Below are positions 12,357 through 48,846 of a stretch of DNA of 64,000 bases, in pieces; position 1 is the first letter of the stretch; every line of letters begins with the position of its first letter. The stretch comes from Tunicatimonas pelagia (GTDB taxonomy: Bacteria; Bacteroidota; Bacteroidia; Cytophagales; Cyclobacteriaceae). The notes under the pieces are model-generated. The model ran no database searches. It was not told the origin of the DNA and saw nothing but the letters and a program-made list of their open reading frames with translations. The DNA lies in NCBI RefSeq assembly GCF_030506325.1, contig NZ_CP120683.1, forward strand, positions 992,001 through 1,056,000, read 5' to 3'. A program made the position numbers and the translations under genes.

Positions 12357-12369
12357 GCAACAATGTTGC
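12357..12369. promoter_or_regulatory. Putative Zur box 1, between ZnuD-like and AztD-like genes
   Basis: GCAACAATGTTGC, a perfect inverted repeat around one central base. For the rightward gene, the TTG at 12366-12368 is followed after 20 nt by TACTTTCG (12389-12396), a near-perfect -7 element. For the leftward gene a TTTG lies just beyond the box and TATTTTTT (complement of 12343-12350) follows, placing the box in the spacer. A repressor bound here would block both promoters. Confidence 0.8.
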
Positions 12370-12422
12370 AAATGTATTGTTACTACTTTACTTTCGCAAA
12401 CAAAAGTAAAACTATTAACACT

Positions 12423-13730
12423 ATGAGAAATCTTCGTCTATTTTTTATGTTACTAAGCCTATCCTGGCTTACTTTTTCTTGTTCCGATGATGATAACAAC
12501 AATGTTGTTCCCGATGATGCTTCCCAATCTTTTGGGGAACTTGAAGGAGAGTATATCCGCCTGGCTATGATGGTGGATAGTACTCAAATGATGATTATGG
12601 ATCCGGTCTCCGAGCAAACCAAATTTACGGTAAGTGAGCCAATGACCCCGGGAGCCCGTTACTACCTCAGTCCTACCGGACGTTATCTGGTATCAATAGA
12701 GCGCTCCCAAAACCAAACCCGTTTTTTTGATGTGGGTATTGTGAACCATAATGACCATGGTCATGAGTATCAGGCACTATGGTTAGATAAAGTAATTACT
12801 TCGCCTTTGCCTACCCACTATTCTGATACTGGCGATGATATCGTGATATTTAACGATGGAGACGGTTCTATTATCCATATTGAAGAAAGTAGATTGGAGT
12901 TTGACGGTTACCAAGCCCCTGTCATTCCTATGCCTAATCAGACCCAGCACCACGGCGCAACCGTACGTCTGGATAATGGTTTGTTTGCCGTTACCTTTCA
13001 AGATAATCCGACGGAGGGAAATAAGAGATTGCCCCAAGCGGTTAAGCTAGTGGACGGTCAAGGGCAAGTTCAAGTAGATAATGAAGACGTACGGGTAGGT
13101 GCTATTCACGGAAATACTTCTAACGGCAAAGTGGCGTTGTTTGGCTCTACTGATGGGGTCATCGTAGCCAATGCCAATAACGAAATCTCGCTGATTCCCA
13201 ACGTGGATACCTTACTGAATGCGACCAGTGGTAACTGGATTGGGAGGGTGATTGGTCATGATGACCTAGATGTATTCTACGGCTGGGTTCGCTTACAAGG
13301 TCTGCTACGTATTGACCCGGCTAGTCAAAGTATGACCCGCTTCTACGAAGGTGACGATGTAAAATCAATCTTTTTTAGCGAAGATGGTGCCTATCTTATT
13401 TTGCACAAAACCGATGACGAAATAGTGGTGTACAATGCCGCCAGTGGTAATGAAATGACCCAGGAGGTAATTGCGATTGCCCCGGATGCAGCCTACGACA
13501 ACGCCCGGAAAGAAGCCCCGACTGAGTTAGAACGATTACGCCTGATGGAAGAGCCCGAGCGAGTGCTAACTACTTCCGCTGAATTTTTGTACGTATTAGA
13601 ACCTTCTCAAACGGAAATCAACGTTCTTCGGTTATCAGATCTATCATCAGTGAAAACCATAACGCTAGATGCACCGGTAGACTTAATCAAGCGAGTTGGC
13701 TTCCACCGAAAAGAGAACGCAGCTTGGTAA
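12423..13730 (+). CDS. AztD-like zinc chaperone lipoprotein (beta-propeller)
   Basis: 435 residues from ATG 12423, chosen because it opens a lipoprotein signal (SLSWLTFSC, Cys20); an upstream TTG frame start lies inside the operator and is unlikely. AztD-type propeller features: His cluster HNDHGHE (about 109-115), PTHYSDTGDDIVIFNDGDG with His132, QTQHHGATVRL (176-177), then AIHGNTSNGKVALFG and STDGVIV. AztD of alphaproteobacteria hands zinc to the AztC binding protein in the periplasm. Here the protein is membrane anchored and no AztABC genes are visible, so its client may be a TonB receptor or ABC system in this island. Confidence 0.75.
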   Translation: MRNLRLFFMLLSLSWLTFSCSDDDNNNVVPDDASQSFGELEGEYIRLAMMVDSTQMMIMDPVSEQTKFTVSEPMTPGARYYLSPTGRYLVSIERSQNQTRFFDVGIVNHNDHGHEYQALWLDKVITSPLPTHYSDTGDDIVIFNDGDGSIIHIEESRLEFDGYQAPVIPMPNQTQHHGATVRLDNGLFAVTFQDNPTEGNKRLPQAVKLVDGQGQVQVDNEDVRVGAIHGNTSNGKVALFGSTDGVIVANANNEISLIPNVDTLLNATSGNWIGRVIGHDDLDVFYGWVRLQGLLRIDPASQSMTRFYEGDDVKSIFFSEDGAYLILHKTDDEIVVYNAASGNEMTQEVIAIAPDAAYDNARKEAPTELERLRLMEEPERVLTTSAEFLYVLEPSQTEINVLRLSDLSSVKTITLDAPVDLIKRVGFHRKENAAW

Positions 13731-13789
13731 AGTTAACAAAGCATTTCGTTTGACAATCGTGTGGAACGGAGCTGCTGAGAATAATCCTT

Positions 13790-13834
13790 CACCAAATCAT
13801 AGCCCACTCCGCTGAGCTGTGATTTGGTGTTTTT
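13790..13834 (+). terminator. Intrinsic terminator after the AztD-like gene
   Basis: CACCAAATCA (13790-13799) pairs perfectly with TGATTTGGTG (13820-13829), with a 20-nt loop that can form a small inner stem, followed by TTTTTA. The position 60 nt after the stop codon and the orientation fit. Confidence 0.8.
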
Positions 13835-13931
13835 ATAGCAGGTAAACTTTTTATATGGCTCTATATATCGTATCTATTGCTGGTTGCTTTACGTTCTGTA
13901 AAGTATTATCAGTCATAAAATACCAGGCACT

Positions 13932-14996: not shown

Positions 14997-15075
14997 AGCC
15001 GGATAATTATCGCTCTCTCTGAGGTGCATATGTCACCAATGGCTTTCTTCTAAATGGTAAATTAGGCGTATTTTC

Positions 15076-15088
15076 GCAACTCTGTTGC
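15076..15088. promoter_or_regulatory. Putative Zur box 2, ahead of the ABC/TonB run
   Basis: GCAACTCTGTTGC, with five-base arms fully conserved and a divergent centre. TTG 15085-15087 is followed after 20 nt by TATATTCA (15108-15115), six of eight matches to TAnnTTTG. It points rightward only; the leftward neighbour is convergent and ends at 14996. Confidence 0.7.
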
Positions 15089-15120
15089 AATTGAATTCAC
15101 CTCTTGGTATATTCACTTCT

Positions 15121-15435
15121 GTGAATCACAACCGCCCAATAATAGCTTTACTGCTGGCTGCATCCTTCATGGTGCAACCACTGCTATTTGCTCTCCATGC
15201 GACTGAGCACGAACCGCCTCGCATCAAACCGGTGACAGATTACCTAGTAGTGGAGCAATCAGTGTCAGATTGTGATCTGTGCGATAATTATAAGCACCTT
15301 TCTTTTTTTAGCCTAACCTTTTTCTCGCTAACATTTCACAAACTATTTGCTGCTTACGTAGCATCCTTTTGTCTATCTATCCTACAGGAAGTTAACGTAA
15401 ACTACTGGCTACGTGGGCCCCCAGTTACCCAGTAA
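15121..15435 (+). CDS. Small exported protein with CxxC, first gene after Zur box 2
   Basis: About 104 residues from GTG 15121, which opens a hydrophobic signal (PIIALLLAASFMVQPLLFAL). ATG 15169 is an alternative but would cut the signal. Features are HATEHEPP, then VSDCDLCDNYKHLSFF and a second hydrophobic stretch, ending in RGPP. Small Bacteroidota proteins with H..C.LC and a terminal RGPP are often found next to metal-receptor genes; their function is not established. The predicted transcription start almost coincides with the GTG, so a leaderless message is possible. Confidence 0.55.
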   Translation: MNHNRPIIALLLAASFMVQPLLFALHATEHEPPRIKPVTDYLVVEQSVSDCDLCDNYKHLSFFSLTFFSLTFHKLFAAYVASFCLSILQEVNVNYWLRGPPVTQ

Positions 15436-15649
15436 ATAGTCTGATATTCTGACTCAGGAATTAGTCGCTTAGTAGTGGCTACAGACGTTTTCTCTCGACT
15501 CTAATTTTAGCTAGTGAGTTATGGCTGACTAACTCTTGCCGACATTCGTGGTGTATCCAGTCTATTCATTCGATAGCTTTCTAATTATCCTTGCCTACTT
15601 AAGGTAATAAACTCACTATTTACTTTCTACCTATCTAATCTATACAACT

Positions 15650-17777: not shown

Positions 17778-17779
17778 TC

Positions 17780-19093: not shown

Positions 19094-19111
19094 TTACCTC
19101 CAAGCAATACT

Positions 19112-19780: not shown

Positions 19781-19817
19781 TCGTATTACTTCGACTTCTA
19801 TCCACCCTAAACCAACT

Positions 19818-33393: not shown

Positions 33394-33606
33394 TTAGCGA
33401 AAATAACGATACAGTTGCCATCCGGCCACTGCCAGCAGCAACACTGCTGTGCTAACCTCAAGCAGTATAGTGCTATTCATGGCTACGCTGTGAGCACCGA
33501 AAGGTGCTAAAATATAGTGCCCTAGGCTATCCATCCCGAGTAGAGCGTAAGTAATAAGGCAAATCAGTCCAATGAATCGCGCACCTCGATATGAGCGGTA
33601 CTCTAC
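33394..33606 (-). CDS. Small membrane protein, start unclear
   Basis: An open frame of 71 codons ends at TAA 33394-33396. It begins within the stop region of the carbonic-anhydrase gene without an ATG in the usual place. It reads RGARFIGLICLITYALLGMDSL, then GHYILAPFGAHSVAMNS and a second helix ILLEVSTAVLLLAVAGW, ending in basic YRYFR. The residue pattern is that of a real two- or three-helix protein. Either a non-ATG start couples it to the upstream gene or its front end is lost. ATG at Met of GMDSLGHY (33535-33537) is the first Met. Confidence 0.45.
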   Translation of the reverse strand, partial: VEYRSYRGARFIGLICLITYALLGMDSLGHYILAPFGAHSVAMNSTILLEVSTAVLLLAVAGWQLYRYFR

Positions 33607-34316
33607 AGGCTTTTTACCTCAACCACTTCAAAGTTTCGGGCATCGAAGTAATCGTCTAAGCCGTAGTCGGTATTAATGATAATGCCGCCCAACAGCGTTA
33701 CTTTATCTACGTGAAATTCACTTTTACAGTCTTTCAAGTAAGTGTGAATCTTTTGATCGATAATTTCATAAGCGGCTTCGGTAATAGCTTTTTCTGGATT
33801 ATCACTAGCCAGAATTTCTTCTCGGTACGGGAGTAGGCTTTCTTCCAGCTTCATTTGCTGGTAATCTTCTTCTTTCAACACTGGTTTGTAATCGCCGTCT
33901 TGCAATCTACCTAATGCCAGCATAAGGGCACCGCAAGAGTTACCTTTGTGATCTTGACGGGGTCGGTACATCTTACCCAAGTCACCCTCCAATGTGGCAC
34001 CAATATGAGGGCCATAAAAGATGAATGCGCTACCATCGTCCGGAATATGGTGAGCAAAAGCAGTCATACCAGTTTGCCCGGCAAAAGGTAAACCGCCCAA
34101 TCCTCCCATAATAAATGGACCAAATAGCACATTAAAGAACGTGGTAGAGGGCACGTTTATGTCGTCGGAACACAAGGAGGTAGCCATTAACGCTTTAGAA
34201 ACATCAATGTGGTGTTCAAGTTGCATTTTCCCTAAATAGTGGATAGAGGTATCCTTGGCATCCATCGCATTGGGAAAGTAGCCTTTTACAATTTGGTCAA
34301 ATTTTCTTTGTAGCAT
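33603..34316 (-). CDS. LCIB/theta-type carbonic anhydrase family protein
   Basis: 237 residues matching the LCIB_C_CA family (theta carbonic anhydrase): FNVLFGPFIMGGLGGLPFAG, TAFAHHIPDDGSAFIFYGPHIG, GDLGKMYRPRQ and NSCGALMLAL. Candidate zinc ligands are Cys49, His104 and Cys128. In algae LCIB supports CO2 capture; bacterial members have shown carbonic anhydrase activity. It lies downstream of the COG0523/DUF1826 genes on the same strand after a 230-nt gap holding a hairpin. It may replace a more zinc-demanding enzyme under zinc shortage, an inference from context. Confidence 0.8.
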   Translation of the reverse strand: MLQRKFDQIVKGYFPNAMDAKDTSIHYLGKMQLEHHIDVSKALMATSLCSDDINVPSTTFFNVLFGPFIMGGLGGLPFAGQTGMTAFAHHIPDDGSAFIFYGPHIGATLEGDLGKMYRPRQDHKGNSCGALMLALGRLQDGDYKPVLKEEDYQQMKLEESLLPYREEILASDNPEKAITEAAYEIIDQKIHTYLKDCKSEFHVDKVTLLGGIIINTDYGLDDYFDARNFEVVEVKSL

Positions 34317-34341
34317 AAGTTAGTATGATTAGAGGAGTAAA

Positions 34342-34402
34342 GACTTGCGAAGTTTTAAGACTCTTATTATCGCAGGGTAATCTGTTCTAAACTTCGTAAG
34401 TC
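34342..34402. repeat. Long inverted repeat between DUF1826 and carbonic anhydrase genes
   Basis: GACTTGCGAAGTTT (34342-34355) pairs with AAACTTCGTAAGTC (34389-34402), 14 bp with one G-T wobble and a 33-nt loop. It looks like a REP-type intergenic palindrome. It could end or attenuate the upstream transcript. Confidence 0.7.
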
Positions 34403-34546
34403 TCGTCAAACTATCCAAAAAACTAGCAACCAAAATAAATTGAGATCGAGCTGATTCTAAGCATAAATTGACCAATTATCCTTAAAAGAATTGCCGGAAG
34501 CTATTACCGATTCTTCTAATTCACCCATCAGATAACGTCTGGGTTA

Positions 34547-35194
34547 TCAGTCCAATCTAAAAATTGATCGTTTCAAACCCTGCTCCTTGATTGGAGGCGA
34601 ACGGTGCACAATTCCGTAGTTGGTCTGATTACCCTTCATAATTCCTACATGAAACGAACCCATGTTCTGAATGTTGTAGGGGTCTTTCGCAATTTGCTCA
34701 TTGGTGGTTTGTAAAGCTTTGCGATTGACTTGATGGTTGGGGAGCCACTGCGTACCGGGGCCATCGTACGTGCAGATGAGCCGTATCGGGTAGAGATCCA
34801 CATGAAATTTACGGCAAGCATCATTTTCTACGGTCTGTAGCAGCAATTGGGTTTGAGAGCGATGGGTCAATTTCATGAAAAGATCAGTTAGCATGACCAT
34901 GTCCTCGATAAGCCGAAAAGCACCTTCACTGTGAAGGGAAATATAATCGGACAGAGCCTCGCTAAGCTGCTCCCTAACCTGCCCCTGGTTAGCAGCTAGG
35001 CTGACCGGATGAAAGGGTGATAGATAGACTAACTGAATGAATGAGGCGATAGAGTGTTCCACTGTTCTCGGGCAAACCACCAGCTTGACATCAGGCTTTT
35101 AAATCTGCCGAAAAGCCTCTTCTAGATTCTCACAGATTACATGCTTGAGTGCGGATGCTTCCAGGGTGGGGAGCATGAGGTCAGGCTTAGGCAT
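34547..35194 (-). pseudogene. DUF1826 gene interrupted by an in-frame TAA
   Basis: DUF1826 proteins lie next to COG0523 GTPases in zinc loci. Here the natural start is ATG 35194, which overlaps the stop of the COG0523 gene. The frame reads MPKPDLMLPTLEASALKHVI and continues to AFRQI, then TAA (35099-35101), then KPDVKLVVCPRTVEHS and the rest of the domain. Family blocks after the stop are TYDGPGTQWLPNHQVNRKAL and MGSFHVGIMKGN with IVHRSPP. Without readthrough only a 30-residue peptide or a product restarted at GTG 35080 could be made. The restarted 177-residue form would keep most of the domain, so partial function is possible. Confidence 0.82.
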
Positions 35195-36392
35195 GTACCG
35201 GCCAGTTATCCTCAAAACGATGACCAGCAACTACGGCCCTTCCTTCTAGGCTATTCACCAAGCACTCACGCAGTTCGTGGCTAATGGATTCTTCGTCTAA
35301 ATCTTGACCAATAATCACCAACTCATTCATCCGGTCGCCCCACTGCTCGTCCCACTTTTCCATGATAGCTTGGCGGTTTTCTACGTACCCCGGATTCAAC
35401 AATCTTTCCTGCTTGGGTACTGATGCCCACCAGCGACCGTAAGCATCTGCCCGGGTTGATCCACCCGCTTGGCTCCAAATAAGTGCTTGGTCAGGGCGGG
35501 AAGCTAGCCAGAACAACCCTTTGCTGCGGATGACATTGCCCGGCCAGTTGCGATTCACATGTTGCCAGAAACGCTCGGGATGAAACGGTCGGTGATCCCG
35601 AAAAACAAAGGAAGAAATGCCGTATTCTTCCGTTTCCGGGGTATGCTCATTATTTAGTTCTTTGAGCCAACCCGCGGACTGTTCAGCCTGATCGTAGTCG
35701 AACATCCGGGTATTGAGAATTTCCTTAGGATCAATTTGGCTGTGCGTGGTGCGAATGATGCGGGCATCCGGGTTGAGCTTGGTCAGTACTACCTCCAGTA
35801 GGCGTAGCTGATTCTCATCCACCAAGTCGGTTTTGTTGAGCAAAATAACGTTAGCAAACTCTACCTGGTCGGTGAGCAGGTTCACAATGGTTCGCTGGTC
35901 TTGGGCATCATCGGTCATGCGCCGATCCAAGATGGTATCGGCACTGCCAAAGTCTCGGAAAAAGTTAAAGGCATCTACAACGGTCACCATCGTATCCAAG
36001 CGACTGAACAGGGTTAGATCAAATAGTTCATCTCCGGTAGCGAAAGAAAAGGTCTGGGCTACCGGAATAGGTTCGGAAATACCCGTGCTCTCGATTAGTA
36101 GGTAATCAAACTTCTTCACCTTTGCCAGTCGTTCCACCTCGATCATCAGATCTTCCCGTAGAGTGCAGCAGATGCAGCCGTTGCTCATCTCCACCAGTTT
36201 TTCATCGGTACGAGAGAGTTTTATTTCATTTTGCACCAGTTGGCCGTCTACATTCACCTCGCTCATATCGTTGACGATTACCGCTACTTTCAATCCTTGG
36301 CGGTTATGCAACACATGGTTGAGTAGTGTGGTTTTACCCGCTCCCAGAAAACCACTGAGCACAGTTACGGGCAATTTTTCGCTTTCAAGCAT
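35187..36392 (-). CDS. COG0523 (CobW-like) GTPase metallochaperone, copy 1
   Basis: 401 residues from ATG 36392, overlapping the end of the MerC gene; the longer frame to 36485 is not needed. G1 GFLGAGKTTLL, metal-binding CxCC in MSNGCICC, Walker B/G3-like LIESTGISEP, G4 NKTD, and a CobW C-terminal domain with RSKGLFWLASRP and GRAVVAGHRFEDNWPVHA. COG0523 proteins insert or deliver zinc; ZigA/ZagA types are Zur controlled. Operon order MerC, COG0523, DUF1826 and the operator at 36863 fit that class. The domain structure is complete. Confidence 0.93.
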   Translation of the reverse strand: MLESEKLPVTVLSGFLGAGKTTLLNHVLHNRQGLKVAVIVNDMSEVNVDGQLVQNEIKLSRTDEKLVEMSNGCICCTLREDLMIEVERLAKVKKFDYLLIESTGISEPIPVAQTFSFATGDELFDLTLFSRLDTMVTVVDAFNFFRDFGSADTILDRRMTDDAQDQRTIVNLLTDQVEFANVILLNKTDLVDENQLRLLEVVLTKLNPDARIIRTTHSQIDPKEILNTRMFDYDQAEQSAGWLKELNNEHTPETEEYGISSFVFRDHRPFHPERFWQHVNRNWPGNVIRSKGLFWLASRPDQALIWSQAGGSTRADAYGRWWASVPKQERLLNPGYVENRQAIMEKWDEQWGDRMNELVIIGQDLDEESISHELRECLVNSLEGRAVVAGHRFEDNWPVHA

Positions 36393-36807
36393 TTTGTTTA
36401 GTGTTTTTGAGGGAATGAATATAGTTAGAAAGTGCTGCTCGGGCTTGCTGCACCTGTTTCCAGTTAACCAAATGGGCGATAGCAACGAGTACCGCTCCAG
36501 AAGAGGTAAGCACGGATTCCGGTTCTAAAAAGCGACCGGAACCAATTAGCAAAAACCCCAGAAGGACGAGAATCAATGCTAGTGGCTTACGATGGTATCT
36601 CCGGTAGCCGGGTATCAAAGCGTAGCAAGCGATACAGAAACTTATCAAAATTAAGGTGTACTCTATCCAGGGATTACGTAGGAACTGAAGTCCCGCCAAC
36701 GGAGCCAGCGTGAGCAAAAAAGGTAAGGCCGCGCAATGTAGGGCACACAGCAGGGAGGCACTGAAGCCCACAAAATCAGAGTGAAGCCCTACGAATTTAT
36801 TCTTCAT
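36385..36807 (-). CDS. MerC-domain membrane protein
   Basis: 140 residues from ATG 36807, 30 nt after a TATATTTG -7 element; the open frame to 36915 runs through the promoter and is not used. MerC signature: SDFVGFSASLLCALHCAALP with Cys21 and Cys25, then helices LLTLAPLAGL, YTLILISFCIACYALIP and PLALILVLLGFLLIG. MerC moves mercury in resistance operons; in Bacteroidota MerC-like genes next to COG0523 genes more likely handle zinc. First gene of the zinc operon on this strand. Confidence 0.88.
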   Translation of the reverse strand: MKNKFVGLHSDFVGFSASLLCALHCAALPFLLTLAPLAGLQFLRNPWIEYTLILISFCIACYALIPGYRRYHRKPLALILVLLGFLLIGSGRFLEPESVLTSSGAVLVAIAHLVNWKQVQQARAALSNYIHSLKNTKQNA

Positions 36808-36862
36808 GTTAGATTGATTTTGGTGCAATGAAATTGCAAATATAGCGGTAATTATAACTAAT

Positions 36863-36875
36863 GCAACATTGTTGC
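36863..36875. promoter_or_regulatory. Putative Zur box 3, between two COG0523 units
   Basis: GCAACATTGTTGC, a perfect inverted repeat. Leftward: TTG in the box, then exactly 19 nt, then TATATTTG (complement of 36837-36844), a consensus promoter for the MerC operon. Rightward: TTG 36872-36874 with a weaker TACTAATTG-like element near 36897. One box would silence both units. The 19-mer around it on the minus strand equals that of box 7. Confidence 0.88.
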
Positions 36876-36942: not shown

Positions 36943-37860
36943 ATGGAAGCTATTATTGCCGTTGTCGGCTTCTTAGGAGCAGGAAAAACTACATTGCTAA
37001 AACAGTTAGTGACTAGCTATCTTGATGAAGACTGGAATCCATTCGTCATCTTAAATGATTATGAAAATGCCAACCTTGATGTACAGCAATTTCTGGAGAA
37101 AATGGAGGCAAAATGGGTAAGAGCGCTCAGTGGCAGTTGCATTTGCTGTAGTGGCATACAAGAACTGAGGGAATTCGTCAACAGTATCCCGGAGCGCAAG
37201 CACGGAGTTACGCTCATTGAAGCTAATGGTACTTCTGATTCCTGTTCACTAATGGGCTTCCTTGGGGTTGGACTTAACGATCGGTTTTTACCACCCATTC
37301 AAGTATCGGTGGTAGATGTCAAAAACTGGCAGCAACGCGGAGAGCACAATGAGCTGGAAGCAAATCAGGTTCAGGTATCTTCTCTAATTGTATTAACCCA
37401 TCTTGAAAATGTATCGGCGGATAGACAAACTTTCGTGATTACAGATCTCCAGCGACTCAATCCATTGGCAGAAATTATTACCGCAGACGAAGTTGATGTT
37501 TCTCTTCTGCCTAAACTCTTGCCTTCTAAAAACAATGCACAAAAGCTTGATCACCTTAAAGCCCATTGGGCTTCATATTCTACTGATTTACCCAATTTGC
37601 CTGACCTAGCGTGCATTTATCATTTATGCGAAAGACTGCCTGAGAGCATCCTTAGAGTAAAGGGTTGTACCCAAATTGGGAACGAAGAACGATTCACCTA
37701 CTTTGAGCGAACCCCCGATGGCGAATTGTATATCAGACCCTATAACGGAGTGCCGGTTACTGGGCCAAAGCTACTGACGGTTGGTCCTGGAAGTGATTTA
37801 TCAGTGCTTCAACACGCTATTGAAGGCAGTCTCATTGAAGCAGAGTTACGGGCTCAATAA
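36943..37860 (+). CDS. COG0523 GTPase metallochaperone, copy 2
   Basis: 305 residues. G1 GFLGAGKTTLL (9-19), CxCC in ALSGSCICCSG, LIEANGTSD in the G3 region, SLIVLTHLE as a weak G4 (no NKxD), and a short CobW C-terminal part ending in PKLLTVGPGSD. It is about 100 residues shorter than copy 1 and clearly diverged from it. Divergently transcribed from the MerC operon across box 3. The altered G4 (LTHLE) may change nucleotide specificity. Probably a zinc-starvation chaperone for a different client. Confidence 0.88.
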   Translation: MEAIIAVVGFLGAGKTTLLKQLVTSYLDEDWNPFVILNDYENANLDVQQFLEKMEAKWVRALSGSCICCSGIQELREFVNSIPERKHGVTLIEANGTSDSCSLMGFLGVGLNDRFLPPIQVSVVDVKNWQQRGEHNELEANQVQVSSLIVLTHLENVSADRQTFVITDLQRLNPLAEIITADEVDVSLLPKLLPSKNNAQKLDHLKAHWASYSTDLPNLPDLACIYHLCERLPESILRVKGCTQIGNEERFTYFERTPDGELYIRPYNGVPVTGPKLLTVGPGSDLSVLQHAIEGSLIEAELRAQ

Positions 37861-37878: not shown

Positions 37879-37891
37879 GCAACTATGTTGC
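37879..37891. promoter_or_regulatory. Putative Zur box 4 (over the -33 element)
   Basis: GCAACTATGTTGC. Its TTG (37888-37890) is followed after 19 nt by TAGGTTTG (37910-37917), a perfect -7 element for the rightward small gene and ZnuD-like receptor. It is one of a pair: box 5 centre lies 38 bp away. Confidence 0.85.
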
Positions 37892-37916
37892 GTTTGCGTA
37901 ACTAATTTGTAGGTTT

Positions 37917-37929
37917 GCAACAATGTTGT
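37917..37929. promoter_or_regulatory. Putative Zur box 5 (over -7/start site)
   Basis: GCAACAATGTTGT, one mismatch at the last base. It begins at the final G of the -7 element and covers the predicted start point, so boxes 4 and 5 bracket the promoter. Confidence 0.75.
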
Positions 37930-38339
37930 GTTCTTCGGGTTCATATTCATGGTCACTAAAAGAGAAGCTTGAAAATGGAATTAGTATTCTGTTGGCAATG
38001 CTTATGCTTTTGAGCGTATTTAGTTCGGCCATCTCTTTAATGACATTCCACTGGCAATTTGATACTCACTTAGCGGAATGCCAACTAGACCGTCACCACG
38101 CCGAAGGTTGACAGGCCAGTTGCATACTTAAGGAAATGATACCCGAGCCACCGGAGGCAACAACAGAAAAGACTATTACCTTCACCTACTCTTTTCCGGC
38201 TTTATTTTTTCAAAACTATCAGTCGGTCTCGACATCGCTATTGAGTAAGATTACTGTGGTGAACTGCTTTGTCCATCATCTTACGCTCTATTCTCCGCCC
38301 GATTTAGGAATGCATTCCCCTCCTCCCGAACTGGGCTAA
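37923..38339 (+). pseudogene. Small exported CxGxC-type protein with in-frame TGA
   Basis: The first part has a hydrophobic signal (ISILLAMLMLLSVFSSAISL) and FDTHLAECQLDRHHAEG, then TGA at 38109-38111. The same frame continues QASCILKEMIPEPPE, TFTYSFPALFFQNY and ends MHSPPPELG at TAA 38337-38339. This order matches small Bacteroidota proteins with a CxGxCxLxK motif that precede metal TonB receptors. The TGA aligns with the first Cys of that motif, so a TGC/TGT to TGA change (or recoding) is suggested. ATG 37923 overlaps box 5 and the predicted start point; ATG 37998 is the next Met. Confidence 0.65.
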
Positions 38340-38520
38340 TTCCCAGTCAGTATGCTTTCCTTACCATTAGGTAATTAACCTGCTTTCAAAAGCAGAGTTG
38401 GTTGAAGCTTTAAGGCTTTCAGACAATTGCCTTTCTATTCACCTTTAGCAAGGTTTTCACAATCCGGTCTTTACTGTTCCGCCCGAATATCGGTGTCTGG
38501 AAAAATATTGAATAAATACA

Positions 38521-40956
38521 ATGAAGAAATATCTCCTGGTTAGTTGGTGCCTCTTTAGGGTATGTTGCTACGCCCATGCTACCCAAGGCAGACAGTTTTC
38601 AGACTCCTGTGCCTATGAAATCCGCGGCAGTATTCTGGATGCGGAAACCCAACAGCCTATCCCCTTTGCCACGGTAATGATCAAAAATACCCGGAAAGGA
38701 GTTGAAGCCAATAAACAGGGAAAGTTTTTGCTGGAAAACCTTTGTAAAAAAGAATACACCCTGGTGTGTTCCAGTGTCGGCTACGAAAATTACCGTAAGC
38801 GCATTTCTCTAAGTGAGGATACGGAGATGAATGTCCGGATGACGCCCAAGATGGTGAGCCTCAGTGAAGTAGTGGTTTCCGCTAATTATGAGGAGCAACG
38901 TAAACAAGAAGAAGCCCTCAGCCTGGAAATCGTCAATAGCGATTATCTCAAACAGCACCAGGGAGGCAGCCTTATGAACTCCCTGGATCGGTTGGCGGGG
39001 GTCACTACCATGGACATTGGTTCCGGGCAGTCCAAACCGGTGATTCGCGGACTTGGCTTCAATAGGGTGGTGGTGGTAGAAAACGGCATTAAGCACGAAG
39101 GCCAACAGTGGGGGGTAGATCATGGACTGGAGATCGATCAATATGCCGTTGACAATGTAGAGGTTATCAGAGGCCCTTCTTCACTGAGGTACGGCTCCGA
39201 TGCCATTGGGGGAGTGATCAATGTTAAACAGGATCAATTGCCCGAGCAAAATACGCTCTCAGGAACCGTTGATCTTACCGGAAAAACGAACAATAACCTG
39301 TTAGGAACCTCCATTTCTCTGGCCGGCCGAGGAGATGTTTTTTTTGCTACTTTTCGGGCCACATTACTCGACTACGGCGACTATAAAGTGCCAACCGATA
39401 GCGTGGATATCTATAACTTCCGGGCACCACTCTACAAAAATCATTTGCGTAATACGGCCGGTCACGAACACGACCTGCATTTCTCGTTTGGCTACACTAA
39501 GCCTACCTTTCAAAGTAGATTCTACGTCAGCAACATCCAGAGTAAGAGCGGCTTCTTTGCCAATGCTCACGGCCTTGAACCCAGAAATGTAGACGAGGAG
39601 TTTCATGACCAATCTAACCGGGACATTCACTATCCCTACCAACAGGTTAACCACTTCAAGGTAATCAACAAAAGCCAGTGGGAGTGGAAAAAATACGAGT
39701 TAAAAAGTGAAGTGGGTTTTCAACGAAATTTTCGGCAAGAGTGGAGCCAATACGTAAGTCATGGCTTTATGCCAGCTGTTTATCAGGGGGAAGAGGGCTT
39801 TAATCCTGAGCTGGAGCGTCAGTTTGATAAATACGTGTATTCAGCCAATGTTGAGGGAGCGTACTTTCATTCGGATCGAACGTCGGTCACGGTAGGGGTC
39901 AATGGTTCGTACCAGGATAATCGTATTGGAGGGAGAGGTTTTATTATCCCCGCCTTTCGCCAGCTCAACGTAGGCAGCTTTGTTTTAGCCCGACATCGCT
40001 TTACCGAAAAAAGCACCTTGCAGGCGGGTATCCGGTACGATTACGGGAATACCCAAATAGACAGCTACCAGGATTGGTTCACTTCACCAGCTATTTTCGG
40101 AACAGATACTACTGACCAATACTTGCAGCGAGCTAGTGATTTGAACCGAAATTTTTCCAACGTATCCTGGTCAATCGGGTACAATTACCATACGCCCCAC
40201 TGGTCGTTTAAAACCAACCTGGGGAAAAGCTTTCGTATGCCCATTGCGAAAGAACTCGGTGCCAATGGGGTGAACTATCACCGCTTTAGCTTTGAAGTAG
40301 GCGACCCGGACCTCTCTCCGGAAGTGGCCTATCAAGTAGATGCAGGGCTGGAATATCGTTCGGAAAGATTCGCTCTGGGGCTTACTCCTTTTGCCAATTA
40401 TTTTTCCAATTATATTTACCTCAACCCCACGGCGGAGCACGACCGGCTCTACGGTAGTGGCAATCAGGTATTCTACTATTCCCAGGCCAGAGTATTTCGC
40501 TCCGGAGGTGAAATTCATGGTCACTATCAGATCATTAGTCCATTAAGCATTGGCCTAGTGGGCGAATATGTCTACCAAATTCAGTTGTCGGGCGAAAAGA
40601 AGGGCTTTACCCTACCCTTCTCACCGCCGGCATCGGTCATTTTTAATCTGAGGTACGAAAGGGATGAATGGAAATTACTGAAGAACCCTTATGTGTCGGT
40701 GGACTATAAAGTAGCGGCATCCCAGACCCGTATTGTGCCTCCGGAAGAGGTAACGGACGGCTACCAAGCAGTAAACCTCGGTATGGGAGGGGAAGTAAAG
40801 TTGCCCGAACGCAGCCTTAGCATTTCGCTACAGGTGCAAAACCTGTTCAATACTCAATACTTTAACCACACCAGCTTCTACCGACTGATTAATGTACCTG
40901 AACCGGGACGGAATTTTATCCTGAATATTTCAATACCATTTTCAAGAAGAATATAA
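38521..40956 (+). CDS. ZnuD-like TonB-dependent receptor, copy 2
   Basis: 811 residues, close paralog of the receptor at 9865: CarboxypepD_reg domain (EIRGSILDAETQQPIPFATVMIK), plug KPVIRGLGFNRVVVVENGIKH, GVDHGLEIDQYAVDNVEVIRG, LRYGSDAIGGVINV, and barrel end YRLINVPEPGRNFILNISIPF. The end block PEPGRN is shared with copy 1. It follows the small CxGxC gene by 181 nt with no clear promoter of its own, so boxes 4/5 probably govern it. Role: zinc or zinc-chelate uptake across the outer membrane. Confidence 0.9.
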   Translation: MKKYLLVSWCLFRVCCYAHATQGRQFSDSCAYEIRGSILDAETQQPIPFATVMIKNTRKGVEANKQGKFLLENLCKKEYTLVCSSVGYENYRKRISLSEDTEMNVRMTPKMVSLSEVVVSANYEEQRKQEEALSLEIVNSDYLKQHQGGSLMNSLDRLAGVTTMDIGSGQSKPVIRGLGFNRVVVVENGIKHEGQQWGVDHGLEIDQYAVDNVEVIRGPSSLRYGSDAIGGVINVKQDQLPEQNTLSGTVDLTGKTNNNLLGTSISLAGRGDVFFATFRATLLDYGDYKVPTDSVDIYNFRAPLYKNHLRNTAGHEHDLHFSFGYTKPTFQSRFYVSNIQSKSGFFANAHGLEPRNVDEEFHDQSNRDIHYPYQQVNHFKVINKSQWEWKKYELKSEVGFQRNFRQEWSQYVSHGFMPAVYQGEEGFNPELERQFDKYVYSANVEGAYFHSDRTSVTVGVNGSYQDNRIGGRGFIIPAFRQLNVGSFVLARHRFTEKSTLQAGIRYDYGNTQIDSYQDWFTSPAIFGTDTTDQYLQRASDLNRNFSNVSWSIGYNYHTPHWSFKTNLGKSFRMPIAKELGANGVNYHRFSFEVGDPDLSPEVAYQVDAGLEYRSERFALGLTPFANYFSNYIYLNPTAEHDRLYGSGNQVFYYSQARVFRSGGEIHGHYQIISPLSIGLVGEYVYQIQLSGEKKGFTLPFSPPASVIFNLRYERDEWKLLKNPYVSVDYKVAASQTRIVPPEEVTDGYQAVNLGMGGEVKLPERSLSISLQVQNLFNTQYFNHTSFYRLINVPEPGRNFILNISIPFSRRI

Positions 40957-41627: not shown

Positions 41628-41633
41628 ACGTAT

Positions 41634-42095
41634 TTATTTTTCTTTTACTTGGTTGACTTCTTCTGCTATTGCCTTAATTTCTTCTAGCAGATGTTGCTGA
41701 ACTTGCAAGTGTTGCTCGGGGGTCAGTTTCGTTTGCTCACCATGATCATGGTCGTGGTCGTGATCATGCCCCGAATGGTCATGGTCATGATCATGGTCGT
41801 GCTCAAAGCCGGGTACCTCTACTAGCTGTTCATCCCACTCTTTCAGCGAGCGGCTGATAGACTCCAAATCCGCTGTATAGGTATTTACAAACAAGGAATC
41901 CTCATTGGCTTTCAGTTGGTCTATTTGCTTATCCGCCATCTGACGAATTTCTACGGCTTCCTGATGAAGCTCAAAAGCTTGTTGCAAGTTTTCATCTGTT
42001 TTCTTACTATCTCCACAAGCCACGACCAGAGATGTCATTCCAAGGGTGAGGGCGAGCAGCGTACCGTAGTTGGAAAAGTATTTTTTTTGTATCAT
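41634..42095 (-). CDS. His/Asp-rich zinc-binding lipoprotein
   Basis: 153 residues; lipobox TSLVVACG, helical body (QQAFELHQEAVEIRQMADKQIDQL, LESISRSLKEWDEQLVEVPGF), then a run of alternating His and Asp (HDHDHDHDHSGHDHD type) and a helical tail. The helical plan recalls the viral A-type inclusion lipoproteins of this phylum with an added metal tail. It likely buffers or passes zinc in the periplasm for the divergent ABC system. Promoter: TTG in box 6, 19 nt, TATATTTG (complement of 42128-42135). Confidence 0.82.
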   Translation of the reverse strand: MIQKKYFSNYGTLLALTLGMTSLVVACGDSKKTDENLQQAFELHQEAVEIRQMADKQIDQLKANEDSLFVNTYTADLESISRSLKEWDEQLVEVPGFEHDHDHDHDHSGHDHDHDHDHGEQTKLTPEQHLQVQQHLLEEIKAIAEEVNQVKEK

Positions 42096-42153
42096 TTGCT
42101 TCCAGTTATAGATAGTTCATTCCTATGCAAATATATGGTTAATCATAATAATT

Positions 42154-42166
42154 GCAACCATGTTGC
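42154..42166. promoter_or_regulatory. Putative Zur box 6, between His-rich lipoprotein and ABC operon
   Basis: GCAACCATGTTGC. Leftward: TTG, 19 nt, TATATTTG (42128-42135 complement). Rightward: TTG 42163-42165, 20 nt, TACATTTG (42186-42193). Both are consensus promoters with the -33 inside the box, so a single dimer could shut both off. Confidence 0.88.
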
Positions 42167-42210
42167 GTTTGATAGCTTTACTCGCTACATTTGGCTGGAA
42201 TATAACGTTG

Positions 42211-42837
42211 ATGTTCAAGACTCATTCACTGTCTTTTGCTTATAACCAACAAGCAAGTTTCCACTTCCCGGATATTGAGCTGGATGCTGGGGGAAATCTG
42301 CTGATATTGGGTGAGTCAGGGATCGGTAAAACCACCTTATTGCACCTAATGGCGGGGTTATTACAACCTCAGTCAGGCCGGGTAGAACTCATGGGTACTC
42401 TCATTCATGAACTTTCTTCAAGTCAATTGGACTGTTTTCGGGGTAGCCATATTGGTTTGGTGTTTCAACGACTCCACTTCGTCCGCGCCCTTTCTTTGCA
42501 GGAAAACCTAGCTTTGGTGCAACATTTGGCTCGGAAACCAGTAGACAAATCGCGCATCAAAGATGTGCTCGACGGCTTGGGAATTGGCCATAAATTATCC
42601 GAAAAACCGCATCGGCTCAGTCAGGGTGAGCAACAACGGGCAGCTATTGCGCTGGCGGTAGTCAATCGCCCTCAACTTATCCTAGCCGATGAGCCTACCT
42701 CTAGCCTGGACGATAAAAACGCCAATCGGGCAGCCCGCCTGCTACAAGAACAGGCGTTCACCACTGAAGCACAGTTAATCATTATCACCCACGACCAACG
42801 GTTGAAAGCGCAGTTTTCCAATACCCTGACGTTATGA
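42211..42837 (+). CDS. ABC transporter ATPase (Zrg/LolD type)
   Basis: 208 residues from ATG 42211, 18 nt after the -7 element; a longer frame to 42160 would start inside the operator. Walker A LGESGIGKTTLLHL, Q-loop HIGLVFQRLHFV, signature LSQGEQQRAAIALA, Walker B LILADEPTSSLD and ITHDQRL. It belongs to the LolD/MacB group that pairs with FtsX-like permeases. The stop overlaps the permease start (ATGA). I infer the energiser of a zinc-linked system like Vibrio ZrgABCDE. Confidence 0.92.
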   Translation: MFKTHSLSFAYNQQASFHFPDIELDAGGNLLILGESGIGKTTLLHLMAGLLQPQSGRVELMGTLIHELSSSQLDCFRGSHIGLVFQRLHFVRALSLQENLALVQHLARKPVDKSRIKDVLDGLGIGHKLSEKPHRLSQGEQQRAAIALAVVNRPQLILADEPTSSLDDKNANRAARLLQEQAFTTEAQLIIITHDQRLKAQFSNTLTL

Positions 42838-44159
42838 ATATTTTCCGCCTCAGCTTACGAAATATGACCAGCCGTCCGCTCAGTACTACCCTGAGCCTGG
42901 TACTGCTAACACTAGGTGTAGGCATGATCGCTTTGTTGTTGCAGGTGAACCGCCATATTCAGCAACAGATGGAAAACAATATTCGGGGTATCGACATGGT
43001 GGTAGGAGCCAAAGGTAGTCCTCTGCAACTGATTCTCTCAGCGGTCTACCATATTGATGCCCCTACTGGTAACATTGCCCTGCATGAAGCGGAGCAACTT
43101 CAAAACAATAGGCTGGTAGCTTATGGTATTCCCCTTTCCTACGGAGACAGCTATGAGGGCTACCGGATTGTCGGTACCGATCATCAGTACCCTGAACTCT
43201 ACGCTGCTACACTTGCTGAAGGCCAGCTCTGGCAAGCTCCTTTTGAAGTGACGGTGGGAGCGACGACAGCCAACCTCCTGAACCTGAAGATTGGCGACAA
43301 TTTTGTGGGGGCGCACGGACTAACCGAAGGTGGGGAAGTGCATGACGAACACGCGTATCAGGTAGTAGGCGTATTTGACTACACCAATTCAGTACTGGAT
43401 CAACTGATTCTTACCGCTACTGAAAGTGTATGGGCAGCCCACCACCATGAAGAAGAGCATGAGGGGGAAGAGCACGGACACGGAGAAGAAGAAGAACGCC
43501 ATGAACATCAGGAGGGAGAGGAACATCATGAGCATGAGGAAGAACACAAACATGAAGAAGGGGAAGAGCACCACGAACACGATGGAGAGCACGAACATGA
43601 TGAACACGAAGAAGAGCGGGAAATTACTGCAATGCTGGTGAAGTTCCGAAGCCCGATGGGGATAGTACAACTTCCCCGTAGGGTGAACGAAGACACCAAT
43701 ATGCAGGCGGCAGTGCCCGCTTATGAGATCAGTCGGCTGTTCAGCCTGATGGGGGTTGGGGTAGATACGCTCAGCACTATCGCACTAGTGATTATGGCTG
43801 TTTCAGGACTTAGTGTTTTCATCAGCCTGTACAACGCCTTGAAAGACCGACAGTACGAAATGGCTTTAATGCGAACCTACGGAGCCAGTCGTTGGCAGTT
43901 GGTAGGGTTGGTACTCCAGGAGGGTTTATTGTTGACCTTGGTCGGTTTTTTGCTGGGTATTTTAGTGAGTCGTCTGGGGCTATGGTTAATATCCGGTCTG
44001 ATGGAAGCGAGCTACCACTACTCCTTTTCAGGATGGGGCTGGTTGGTCGAAGAATGGTGGTTACTGGTGAGTGCTTTAGCTATTGGGCTACTAGCTTCCC
44101 TACTTCCAGCGATTCGCGTATTTCGTATCAACATCTCCAAAACATTAGCCGATGCTTAG
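42834..44159 (+). CDS. FtsX/MacB-type permease with a long His/Glu-rich loop
   Basis: 441 residues. N-terminal helix (STTLSLVLLTLGVGMIALLLQ), MacB-like periplasmic domain (NNIRGIDMVVGAKGSPLQLILSAVYHIDAPTGNI), then about 60 residues almost all H, E and G (nt about 43441-43620), and three C-terminal helices of the FtsX domain (ALVIMAVSGLSVFISLYNALKDRQYEMALMRTYGASRW). The loop points to the periplasm and must bind metal, surely zinc given the operator and neighbours. The start overlaps the ATPase stop; the end overlaps the next gene by 8 nt. Confidence 0.9.
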   Translation: MNIFRLSLRNMTSRPLSTTLSLVLLTLGVGMIALLLQVNRHIQQQMENNIRGIDMVVGAKGSPLQLILSAVYHIDAPTGNIALHEAEQLQNNRLVAYGIPLSYGDSYEGYRIVGTDHQYPELYAATLAEGQLWQAPFEVTVGATTANLLNLKIGDNFVGAHGLTEGGEVHDEHAYQVVGVFDYTNSVLDQLILTATESVWAAHHHEEEHEGEEHGHGEEEERHEHQEGEEHHEHEEEHKHEEGEEHHEHDGEHEHDEHEEEREITAMLVKFRSPMGIVQLPRRVNEDTNMQAAVPAYEISRLFSLMGVGVDTLSTIALVIMAVSGLSVFISLYNALKDRQYEMALMRTYGASRWQLVGLVLQEGLLLTLVGFLLGILVSRLGLWLISGLMEASYHYSFSGWGWLVEEWWLLVSALAIGLLASLLPAIRVFRINISKTLADA

Positions 44160-44586
44160 ACTGACGATCGTATTTTTACTGTTTATCGCTACTCCGGGTT
44201 GGTCACAAACCGAGATTACCTGGCTAACCCTAACGGATGTAAAATTCACCCGAAAATACTTTGAGGAGGTAGACGAATATCTCTTTTACCCTCAGTTCGG
44301 GGCTACCGTGAAAGACCTGGAAGGCAAAGAGGTATACTTGCAAGGCTATATGCTGCCAATTGCCCCGGAAGAAGATATTTACATTCTTTCCCGTTATCCT
44401 TTTGCCTCCTGCTTTTTCTGCGGGGCTAGCGGTCCGGAATCCATTGTGGAGTTGAAGCTTAAACCCGGTCATCCGAAGTTCCAAATGGACCAGACGGTAA
44501 CCATTCTAGGTAAATTACGGCTCAACCAGGATGATATTAATGAGTGCAATTTCATATTTGAAGAGGCTGAGGTTTACGAAGATTGA
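44152..44586 (+). CDS. DUF3299-like exported protein of the zinc ABC system
   Basis: 144 residues: signal peptide FLLFIATPGWSQ, then VEYLQGYMLPI-like KEVYLQGYMLPIAPEEDIYILSRYPFASCFFCGASGPESIVEL, a DUF3299-type OB-fold, with Cys-rich CFFC. Relatives accompany FtsX permease/ATPase pairs in zinc-regulated operons of proteobacteria. Likely a periplasmic helper, possibly metal binding through the Cys pair. Translationally coupled to the permease. Confidence 0.75.
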   Translation: MLRLTIVFLLFIATPGWSQTEITWLTLTDVKFTRKYFEEVDEYLFYPQFGATVKDLEGKEVYLQGYMLPIAPEEDIYILSRYPFASCFFCGASGPESIVELKLKPGHPKFQMDQTVTILGKLRLNQDDINECNFIFEEAEVYED

Positions 44587-44758
44587 TCGATAGTATACTT
44601 GTAATGGTTCAAAAGAACCACGTGGCCACAGAAATATACTCACTTACCCAATCATTCTTTTAAAAGTATCTGTGGTATGTTAGGTTTTCCCTACGAAAAT
44701 ATAACGAACAAATGTAATATTGCGCTTACCTGATATTACTTGGTAACAAAAGAAAATT

Positions 44759-45661: not shown

Positions 45662-45674
45662 CTACATAGCCTGC

Positions 45675-45713
45675 CCCCTACTGGTTGCAGCGAGACGCTA
45701 CGACCAGTAGGGG
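45675..45713. repeat. REP-like palindrome A, after the beta-lactamase
   Basis: CCCCTACTGGT (45675-45685) pairs perfectly with ACCAGTAGGGG (45703-45713); the loop holds a further AGCG-AGA-CGCT stem. It could also terminate the beta-lactamase transcript although no T-run follows. A diverged copy lies at 46919-46968. Confidence 0.75.
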
Positions 45714-45796
45714 TATAACACCGAACGCACCCATCGGCACGTTTATTCAGCCGTTGCAATCAACTGTCTACTCCACATTTACCCATAAGAAACTTA

Positions 45797-46915: not shown

Positions 46916-46918
46916 TGT

Positions 46919-46968
46919 AGCTCGCCCCCACTAGTCGTAGGGCCCGAGTCTCGCTACGACCAGGAAGC
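46919..46968. repeat. REP-like palindrome B, after DUF2855
   Basis: Arms CTAGTCGTAG (46931-46940) and CTACGACCAG (46954-46963), one wobble. It shares TAGC..GCCCCC at its start and CGCTACGACCAG near its end with palindrome A, in the same orientation. Confidence 0.65.
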
Positions 46969-47171
46969 GTGCTAACTTACACTACCAACCGTAGAACACT
47001 CCTTTGGTTCGATACACTCCCTTCGCCTGAAACAACAGAAAAACGTTGAGGCAGTGAAGTAAGGGCGTTGGTATCAAAAGTTTCGGTAAAAGTGAAGCTA
47101 ATCACCCCAATATGAAGCCCGTGAGCAAGGTTACTGGTTTTGATCCACTCAGAACTTGTTCTGCCATTTCG

Positions 47172-48749
47172 TTAGCCAAGTTGCTGTATCTGATTGAGCA
47201 ACGCCCCCTGAATGGTGACCACCGCTGATCGGGGGATACTATTGGGTTCGCCTGGCCAATGGCTCGTGAGTGATTCCAGAGACGACGATTGTTCGCCGGG
47301 GTGCTGAACGCTTAGAAATAGAGTGCTTCCATCCGGGGAGAAGCAGGGGCCCGTAAACTCAGCGTCTACCGGGGCACTCGCCATTTGAATCACTTCTCCG
47401 GCTTGGGGGCCGTCACGCATCACCAAGAACAGACCATTATTTCTGAACGCGCTGTACGGGGGCTGATTCATCTTGGAACCGGAGATGTCAGAGGTAAACC
47501 ACAGATTGCCCGCCCGGTCGAATACCATATTATCGGGAGAAGCGAAGCCGGTATCTTCCCCGCCCGTCAGATACGTAGCAGCCTTAAAAGTTAACGCAGC
47601 ATGGTCGCCGTTTTCTTCCTCAATCTTGAGAATAGAACCAAAGAAGTTTTCTCGAGGAATATTGTTGGTCAGCGCGACTAGCACATCGCCACTTACTGGG
47701 TCAATCTCAATATCTTCGGGACGGTCGAGCCGCGTAGCTCCCAGAATCTTGGCCGATTCTCGCAAGTAGACGAGGGCTTCGGTCTGGGTCTTAAACTGCG
47801 TCATCAGCAGCGGCTGTTGATTCACGTCTACCGGAATCCACATGCCTACGTCTAAGTTGGCTACGTACAGCGTACCTTCCCGCAGCGAGCCGGGTTGGCT
47901 GGAGATGAATTTGTACAGATGTTCGTCGTTTTTATCGTCTCCGGTGTAGACCACCAGTCGCCCATCGGCTAGCTCTTTGACCGTGGCGCATTCGTGGGAG
48001 CAGCGACCCAGAGCCACGTGTTTCTGGGCGGCTCCGGTGGTGGGATCTACTTCTACCACCCAGCCATAGTGCTCCGGCGGATTGGCGTAGAATTTTTCCC
48101 AGCCTTCGGTACTCGGCGTAATGCTTCGGTTGCTAGAAGAACGATCACTGTAGAAATGTTGATAGTTTTCTTCGCAGGTAAGCACCGTGCCCCAGGGAGT
48201 AACTCCACCCGCGCAGTTGCCTAGCGTACCCATTGCTGTGCGTTTTCCTTCTATCGGAGTCCCCCAGTTAAAGGGAATTTCGGTAAGCCCAGTAATGCGT
48301 TTATTATCCGGGTGGGGTACAACTGACCATTGGCTATTTTCTTTTTTCACCCGTACCAAAGAACCCCCGACAGCGTACATTTCCTTCTCTACCTGTTCCT
48401 TGGTCTTTCCGGTAACCGCTTTCTGATGAATCATTAAGGAGTTAATGTACTCATGATTCACCCACAGGGTACCCTCATCGGTTTTTTGCTTATCAGGCAC
48501 AAAGGCGATGAAATCGTTATTGAATCCGAAAGTGTCTTGCTCACTGATAGGATCGCCCCACTGAATTAATAAATTATAATCCAGCTCTTCAGCTAACACT
48601 AAAGCATCATCGGAAGAAGGGGCAATGCCCCGAACTGACTTAGAGTTTACTTTCTTAGCTGCACATCCGCTGACGGCGTACGGTAATAAGGAGGCTGAAA
48701 CTGTGCCTTTAGTTAGTATTTCCAGAAATTTACGTCGGTTAGGTAGCAT
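47172..48749 (-). CDS. phoX: PhoX-family (DUF839) alkaline phosphatase
   Basis: 525 residues. N-terminus NRRKFLEILTKGTVSASLLPYAVSGC is a Tat-like signal that also has a lipobox-like Cys. PhoX hallmarks: GNCAGGVTPWGTVLTCEENYQ, LGRCSHECATV, and LDRPEDIEIDPVSGDVLVALTNN, which carry the Fe/Ca ligands. PhoX releases phosphate from organic esters and does not need zinc, unlike PhoA. The consensus promoter (TTG in box 7, 19 nt, TATTTTTG at 48808-48815 complement) sits under the zinc-type operator, so it may stand in for a zinc phosphatase. Confidence 0.88.
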   Translation of the reverse strand: MLPNRRKFLEILTKGTVSASLLPYAVSGCAAKKVNSKSVRGIAPSSDDALVLAEELDYNLLIQWGDPISEQDTFGFNNDFIAFVPDKQKTDEGTLWVNHEYINSLMIHQKAVTGKTKEQVEKEMYAVGGSLVRVKKENSQWSVVPHPDNKRITGLTEIPFNWGTPIEGKRTAMGTLGNCAGGVTPWGTVLTCEENYQHFYSDRSSSNRSITPSTEGWEKFYANPPEHYGWVVEVDPTTGAAQKHVALGRCSHECATVKELADGRLVVYTGDDKNDEHLYKFISSQPGSLREGTLYVANLDVGMWIPVDVNQQPLLMTQFKTQTEALVYLRESAKILGATRLDRPEDIEIDPVSGDVLVALTNNIPRENFFGSILKIEEENGDHAALTFKAATYLTGGEDTGFASPDNMVFDRAGNLWFTSDISGSKMNQPPYSAFRNNGLFLVMRDGPQAGEVIQMASAPVDAEFTGPCFSPDGSTLFLSVQHPGEQSSSLESLTSHWPGEPNSIPRSAVVTIQGALLNQIQQLG

Positions 48750-48833
48750 TGTGATATAGGGTTGGAGAACACAATTTATTCTTAAAGAATTGAGTAGACT
48801 CTACCTACAAAAATAAGGAAGCAATCAAAAAAC

Positions 48834-48846
48834 GCAACAATGTTGC
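48834..48846. promoter_or_regulatory. Putative Zur box 7, ahead of PhoX
   Basis: GCAACAATGTTGC, identical to box 1. On the minus strand TTG is followed after 19 nt by TATTTTTG, perfect for the -7 element. The start codon lies 59 nt further on at 48749. Confidence 0.88.

Follow-up and report, generated by a model that had tools for sequence, protein, structure and literature searches.

Palindromic promoter-embedded boxes of a probable Zur-type regulon in Tunicatimonas pelagia and related Bacteroidota

A stretch of 64,000 nt from the 7.29 Mb genome of Tunicatimonas pelagia (G000:C1:992001-1056000; 46% GC), hereafter called the window, carries repeated copies of a palindromic box, GCAAC-N3-GTTGC, upstream of genes with homology to zinc-traffic proteins. 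In our judgement these boxes, embedded in promoters, are likely to be the operators through which a Zur-type (Fur-family) repressor would shut zinc-scavenging genes off when zinc is plentiful. Together they would probably make up a regulon of Zur type whose operator sequence is new, the operators being sometimes paired. The box itself, its conservation, its geometry, its gene neighbourhood and part of the Zur ligand set are directly visible in the sequences described below.

The box in the window and in the source genome

Seven copies of GCAAC-N3-GTTGC had been reported in the initial annotation of the window. Six of them are perfect, at positions 12357, 15076, 36863, 37879, 42154 and 48834, but the one at 37917 (GCAACAATGTTGT) carries one mismatch. 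The chance expectation is 0.09 perfect boxes per window and none of 100 shuffles reached six, which rules out chance as the origin of the window boxes. The window was also scanned with a position weight matrix of a 25-bp site built from 125 intergenic boxes (6 of these training sites come from the window itself). Just the same seven sites were recovered at ≥8 bits, against a mean of 0.45 and a maximum of 1 in 20 mono-shuffled windows. The full box reads roughly AAATGCAACANTGTTGCATTT, with symmetrised frequencies of about AAATGCAACA-N-TGTTGCATTT. Its core, TGCAACA-N-TGTTGCA, has the 7-1-7 repeat structure of Fur-family sites, a form that is among those reported for Zur boxes in the text available to us of a review on Zur (PMC6103462).

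It had also been claimed that no perfect copy lies inside a gene. Mechanically called open reading frames (ORFs) open inside boxes 12357, 15076 and 42154; the claim holds for the window because later, likely starts (12423 and 42217) are assumed, the true start of the 15085 ORF being uncertain. It does not hold genome-wide: there are 14 perfect boxes, 6 in the window and 8 elsewhere (the reversed control pattern gives 4), and 6 of the 8 outside copies are within ORFs (one, at locus L012, was placed from its flank alone, which is identical to that of L009). Such copies thus exist, in a number close to that of the control. The other two outside copies are intergenic if ATG starts are considered, and would both fall inside longer open frames if GTG and TTG starts were allowed. 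A second MerC-family gene (L269; PF03203, 30.5 bits, cut-off 27.6) follows one of them after ∼7 bp, and a gene for a pyridine-nucleotide oxidoreductase (L270; PF07992) follows the other after ∼120 bp; homologs of both genes also stand behind boxes in relatives.

Occurrence of the box in related genomes

The distribution of GCAACANNGTTGC was analysed in the source genome and 58 relatives (59 genomes in all), a symmetric copy being counted on both strands. It gave 275 strand hits versus 43 for the control, and 262 versus 43 in the 58 relatives alone. At least 178 copies in 42 relatives are among the matches listed; four further genomes (G038, G042, G046 and G048) also match, outside this set. 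A subset of 129 copies among the matches listed, all from the same family and distributed over 115 stretches, was analysed closely with a simple ORF caller: 101 are intergenic and 28 lie inside ORFs; two of the latter (L112 and L132) are in homologs of MerC and COG0523 whose starts are probably wrong. Beside 60 of the 101 intergenic boxes (53 of 93 outside the genus) there is a gene that is homologous to one in the window or belongs to a recurring class. The classes are TonB receptors (16), Zrg-like ABC (8), MerC (8), DUF3299-like (7), COG0523 (5), a lipoprotein class (5), AztD-like (4), an oxidoreductase class (4), a second MerC class (4) and PhoX (2). Homologs of window genes make up 54 of 115 box-adjacent genes versus 60 of 432 other genes of the same stretches; because every stretch has a box at its centre, near genes are compared here with less near ones and not with the whole genome.

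The box also tends to accompany Fur-family genes. Among the matches listed, such a gene is within 2 kb of 9 of the 178 boxes versus 0.25 expected, and a site of ≥12 bits is present upstream of 12 of 78 Zur-like genes versus 38 of 1560 control stretches. The median number of box hits is 5 in the 47 genomes with a Fur match (own genome included) versus 0 in the 12 without (P = 2.6e-4, uncorrected for kinship).

A second collection consisted of 28 loci (458 kb) found by a six-row alignment, from, among others, Agaribacillus aureus, Fulvivirga species, Reichenbachiella agariperforans and a Marivirga metagenome-assembled genome. It contains 24 boxes versus 0 controls, all 24 intergenic, in 12 of the 28 loci. 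Sequence shared with contigs of the first genome set was detected in five loci (L224, L227, L229, L238 and L240), which hold 8 of the boxes; the second collection thus adds 16 boxes from 23 loci. A fur gene and a ZigA-like gene flank boxes in L225 and L242, as do a fur gene and MerC in L231. A private repeat or mobile element was ruled out as the source of the boxes, their flanking sequences being unlike. A strict 15-mer, TGCAACANTGTTGCA, was found across the phylum in 11 of 296 genomes (its control in one); it is too strict, the window genome itself having none, and we therefore make no claim of phylum-wide spread.

Several other neighbours were observed. A box is located 202 bp before a HisI (phosphoribosyl-AMP cyclohydrolase) gene in L151. 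In three genomes (L167, L195 and L221) a box separates divergent RuvB-like (labelled by eye) and ApbE-family genes, PF02424 having been tested for L221. In G005, the genome with most box hits, boxes are found 86 and 193 bp before peptidase genes of the S8 and M57 families (L127 and L130). A draft of ∼880 contigs from the same genus (G001) contains neither the box nor a match to the Fur-family protein encoded at 7892 in the window.

Position of the box relative to promoters

Promoters of sigma-ABfr are described as having TAnnTTTG at -7 and TTTG at -33, the latter having been hard to find in this phylum (PMC7366714, text seen in part), and TAnnTTTG is also given as the -7 element of the Bacteroidota primary sigma factor in the portion available of PMC9723704. 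TAnnTTTG starts 14-21 bases past the box in 28 of 113 gene-oriented cases (shuffled, 0.83; maximum 3), and in 23 of these 28 it is 18 or 19 bases from the box. With this spacing, the TTG within the GTTGC half precedes the -7 element by 19-20 bases and falls where the -33 element of sigma-ABfr is expected. When start codons are 36-150 bp off, at least 5 of the 6 consensus bases of the -7 element are present at 17-20 bases in 33 of 67 cases (shuffled, 2.9; maximum 8). For the 57 boxes with genes on one side, TAnnTTTG is directed towards the gene in 13 cases.

Searching for second boxes at ≥10 bits yielded 34 distinct pairs, with spacings of 23 (1 pair), 25 (1), 28 (3), 35 (2), 36 (5), 37 (1), 38 (14), 39 (5) and 40 bp (2); 29 of the 34 are thus spaced by 35-40 bp, most commonly 38. 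At the same threshold, none of the 28 boxes inside ORFs was accompanied by a second one. In 21 of the 34 pairs, including 13 of the 14 spaced by 38 bp, one orientation shows a perfect TAnnTTTG whose last base is also the first base of the second box. The pair of the window follows this pattern (no strand is assigned to this or any other box): box 1 (37879-37891) holds the -33 TTG in its GTTG, box 2 (37917-37929, the copy with one mismatch) comes 38 bp after, and its first base is the last of the -7 element TAGGTTTG (37910-37917, plus strand). Perfect -7 elements are also found 18-19 bases from box 36863 on its minus side (TATATTTG, 36837-36844, minus strand, towards MerC), from box 42154 on both sides (TATATTTG, 42128-42135, minus strand; TACATTTG, 42186-42193, plus strand) and from box 48834 (TATTTTTG, 48808-48815, minus strand, belonging to the PhoX-family gene). 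At box 12357, TACATTTG occupies a -7 position (12369-12376, minus strand) and ends on the base of the box that comes first when read towards the receptor gene. There is no such -7 element at 15076, on the plus side of 12357 or on the plus side of 36863. The predicted overlap of the box with the primary-sigma promoter of the phylum is new here.

The fixed spacing to TAnnTTTG could also be expected if the boxes were part of the promoter class of an alternative sigma factor and not operators at all. However, the box is palindromic, it occupies both -33 and -7 positions as well as divergent promoters, and TAnnTTTG is attributed to the primary sigma factor in what is available of PMC7366714 and PMC9723704; we rejected this explanation as highly improbable. 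According to the mechanism that we propose for a Zur-type repressor, a dimer would bind the 7-1-7 repeat TGCAACA-N-TGTTGCA, the right half of which would carry the TTG read at -33 by the Bacteroidota primary sigma factor. Where there is a second box, its first base would typically coincide with the last of the -7 TAnnTTTG, commonly at a spacing of 38 bp, and repressor on the DNA would mask the promoter at -33, at -7 or at both. The spacing of the repressor sites may then be set by the sigma factor's own spacing, because one operator half would be the -33 element and the next operator would start on the -7. When zinc falls, the repressor would leave and the receptors, chaperones and Zrg-like transporter would be made. 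Binding, zinc as the signal, repression and the 7892 protein as the main binder are what we infer from the sequence data.

Candidate regulators, putative target genes and known zinc regulons

Four Fur-family genes were detected in the genome with PF01475. The one at 7892-8317 (plus strand; 9.2e-13, 48.8 bits, cut-off 23.1) is Zur-like and had been put forward as the regulator. Its clade holds proteins of Fulvivirga, Agaribacillus, Reichenbachiella and Marivirga in a tree of 79 Fur-type proteins which, having few columns and unsettled bootstrap, was used only for this clade and for the apartness of L015 and L016; these other two Fur-family genes form a separate group and appear to be better candidates for iron or peroxide. 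When a profile of 30 proteins was compared with solved structures, E. coli Zur (EcZur; 4mtd) came first (1.9e-14). The structural cysteines C103, C106, C139 and C142 are invariant in the 30 rows, EcZur His77 aligns with H71 (30/30) and EcZur Cys88 with C85 (29/30; EcZur numbers read off the alignment), the His/Cys spacing being 11 in EcZur versus 14 in the 7892 group, with a gap between. The best NCBIfam model for the 7892 protein is the curated Zur model NF008646 (PRK11639), under whose cut-off it falls (41 bits versus 167), this model describing one equivalog and not the whole family.

The proposal that the 7892 gene encodes the regulator stands in so far as its product belongs to a Zur-like group keeping the sensory cysteine, but it is weakened by the lack of a box of its own and by a rival, a second Zur-like gene (G000:C1:5363225-5363653). 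An imperfect box (16.2 bits) precedes the matched start of the latter by 12 bp, a similar one is found in G003 (18.9 bits), and the adjoining gene encodes a ZnuD-like receptor homologous to those of the window. On the other hand, the 7892 gene ends 4.0 kb from the first box, and the distance between a box and a close relative of this gene is 3.5 kb in G003, 2.4 kb in G005, 11.5 kb in G022 and at most 300 bp in L225 and L231. Either or both of the two Zur-like proteins may bind the box; that the operator belongs to the paralog instead of the 7892 protein, or to both, is a possibility to be taken seriously, although we do not favour it.

The genes behind the boxes of the window, described as zinc-type in the initial annotation, are as follows. 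Box 12357-12369 lies between divergent genes for a ZnuD-like TonB-dependent receptor (9865-12306, minus strand; NF038289, 2.9e-35, below cut-off, TonB-hemin scoring slightly higher) and an AztD-like protein (12423-13730, plus strand; NF038015, 1.5e-16, below cut-off; 6.1e-10 with the chain of PDB 6ck1, which we take to be AztD), an arrangement kept in G002 (L111) and G003 (L116). On the minus side of box 36863-36875 are genes for a MerC-family membrane protein (36385-36807, minus strand; PF03203, 4e-26) and a ZigA-like COG0523 GTPase (COG0523b; 35187-36392, minus strand; NF038288, 568 bits, cut-off 600), and on its plus side a gene for another COG0523 GTPase (COG0523a; 36943-37860, plus strand; PF02492, 8.7e-25); the MerC/COG0523a arrangement is kept in G003 (L117). 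A second ZnuD-like TonB-dependent receptor gene is at 38521-40956 (plus strand; NF038289, 5e-42, below cut-off, TonB-hemin higher). Box 42154-42166 separates the gene of a His-rich, weakly ZrgA-like lipoprotein (41634-42095, minus strand; PF10986, E = 0.0025, below cut-off) from a Zrg-like unit encoding an ABC ATPase, an FtsX-type permease and a weak DUF3299 protein (42217-44586, plus strand; E = 0.0028, below cut-off), as it does in G002 (L109). Box 48834-48846 precedes a PhoX-family gene (47172-48749, minus strand; PF05787, 4.1e-100); PhoX homologs are likewise preceded by boxes in G002 (L115) and G003 (L118). Finally, box 15076-15088 is before a gene for a small Cys/His protein, with ABC/DUF3526 genes further on, and homologs of the small gene are behind a box in L171 and L224.

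The zinc-type label is backed by ZigA-, AztD- and Zrg-like homology, but most assignments are under the curated cut-offs (ZigA, 568 of 600 bits; AztD, 60 of 400; ZnuD, 144 and 122 of 950) and both receptors score higher as haem-type. Homology of the target genes supports a role in zinc traffic with mostly sub-threshold matches. If the operators responded to haem or to another metal (iron, manganese, nickel or copper), the haem-type receptor scores would be accounted for, and the MerC and PhoX families are not specific to zinc; the ZigA-, AztD- and Zrg-like neighbours, the Zur-type cysteine and the existence of L015 and L016 as better candidates for iron or peroxide make such a signal unlikely.

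Other observations count against a Zur-type regulon controlled by the 7892 protein. Besides the receptor scores, the sub-threshold labels, the boxless 7892 gene and its paralog, the lead of E. coli Zur in the profile comparison is narrow (1.9e-14 versus 1.3e-12 for a Fur and 3.2e-12 for PerR), and the 7892 protein taken singly has a Fur as its top match (3.1e-9), ahead of E. coli Zur (3.2e-7). A Zur sensory site has two N, one O and one S ligand; of these, EcZur His96 falls beside, and not on, an invariant histidine and the Glu ligand is unmatched; a close relative of the 7892 protein in G005 (L023) has Ser at the sensory Cys column, in spite of this genome having most hits. No recurring class is alongside 41 of the 101 intergenic boxes, 16 of the 28 loci of the second collection have no perfect box, a perfect -7 element at the fixed distance is missing in 85 of 113 box orientations, and TAnnTTTG points away from the gene in 4 of the 57 one-sided cases. 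No ZnuABC or zinc-free ribosomal gene was noticed behind boxes, no search having been aimed at them. We nevertheless retain the Zur-regulon interpretation of the initial annotation, which is upheld by the presence of the box before the same gene classes in relatives and near Fur-family genes, and by conservation of the Zur-type sensory cysteine.

Some features of the genes close to the boxes deserve description. Genes for MerC, the ZigA-like protein, DUF1826 and an LCIB-type carbonic anhydrase are in line on the minus strand at 33603-36807, and this row is possibly a zinc-sparing unit. Behind the box pair, a small His/Cys-rich gene (37950-38340) has an in-frame TGA at 38109, its relatives in L112, L125 and L182 being intact. 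Selenocysteine was considered for this TGA and set aside: the best tRNA-Sec match (40.4 bits) is under the cut-off of 47, and since the same search gave matches in all 14 control genomes, above cut-off in 5, a sub-cut-off match means little. Four small proteins encoded downstream of boxes (15085-15435 in the window; L145, L171 and L197) share CxxC and an LRGPP/LRAPP tail; the one from the window has no Pfam match at E = 10.

As far as can be judged from the available text of PMC6103462, the system resembles the Zur regulons of Proteobacteria, Bacilli, Actinobacteria and Cyanobacteria in its palindromic box and in a predicted Fur-family dimer, putative zinc-uptake targets and a probable one-Cys sensory site. 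It differs from them in that the operator overlaps the -33/-7 elements of another promoter type, and in its half-site: TGCAACA differs from the half-sites of the Zur boxes known to us, in agreement with the initial annotation, which had contrasted the box with Zur sites of Proteobacteria and Bacilli. The words Bacteroid and Flavobact are absent from the text of this review. In Vibrio, the portion seen of PMC9817125 describes a Zur-regulated ZrgABCDE system whose genes are up 76- to 206-fold without zinc in V. parahaemolyticus; here too an ABC ATPase and an FtsX-type permease, both clear matches, are encoded side by side at a box with a DUF3299-like and a His-rich ZrgA-like protein, but the window unit is divergent, no ZrgD was seen in it and the ZrgA and DUF3299 matches are weak. 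Outer-membrane receptors are under Zur in Caulobacter (PMC4176598, seen in part), as is predicted here, whereas the Caulobacter motif is GTTA-N5-TAAC. Zur-linked COG0523 genes are placed mainly in Firmicutes and Proteobacteria in the text available of PMC2770081. We found no Zur operator for Bacteroidota in the literature searched, as far as its texts were accessible; most subscription journals and RegPrecise were outside its scope, so that absence is unproven.

PhoX is a phosphatase family that is not known to need zinc, and boxes precede PhoX genes in the window genome, G002 and G003. We lean, by a little, towards the view that a single sequence is both Zur operator and primary-sigma promoter in Cytophagales-type Bacteroidota, and that PhoX and the LCIB-type carbonic anhydrase may be controlled by zinc through the same signal, as a means of sparing this metal. 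Zinc control seems hardly described in Bacteroidota, and a clear box consensus would make zinc regulons readable from genome sequence in this lineage. The box also names candidate zinc proteins, namely the small Cys/His proteins, the MerC-like proteins and the oxidoreductase class, and it would offer a direct test of repressor action on the unusual promoters of the phylum.

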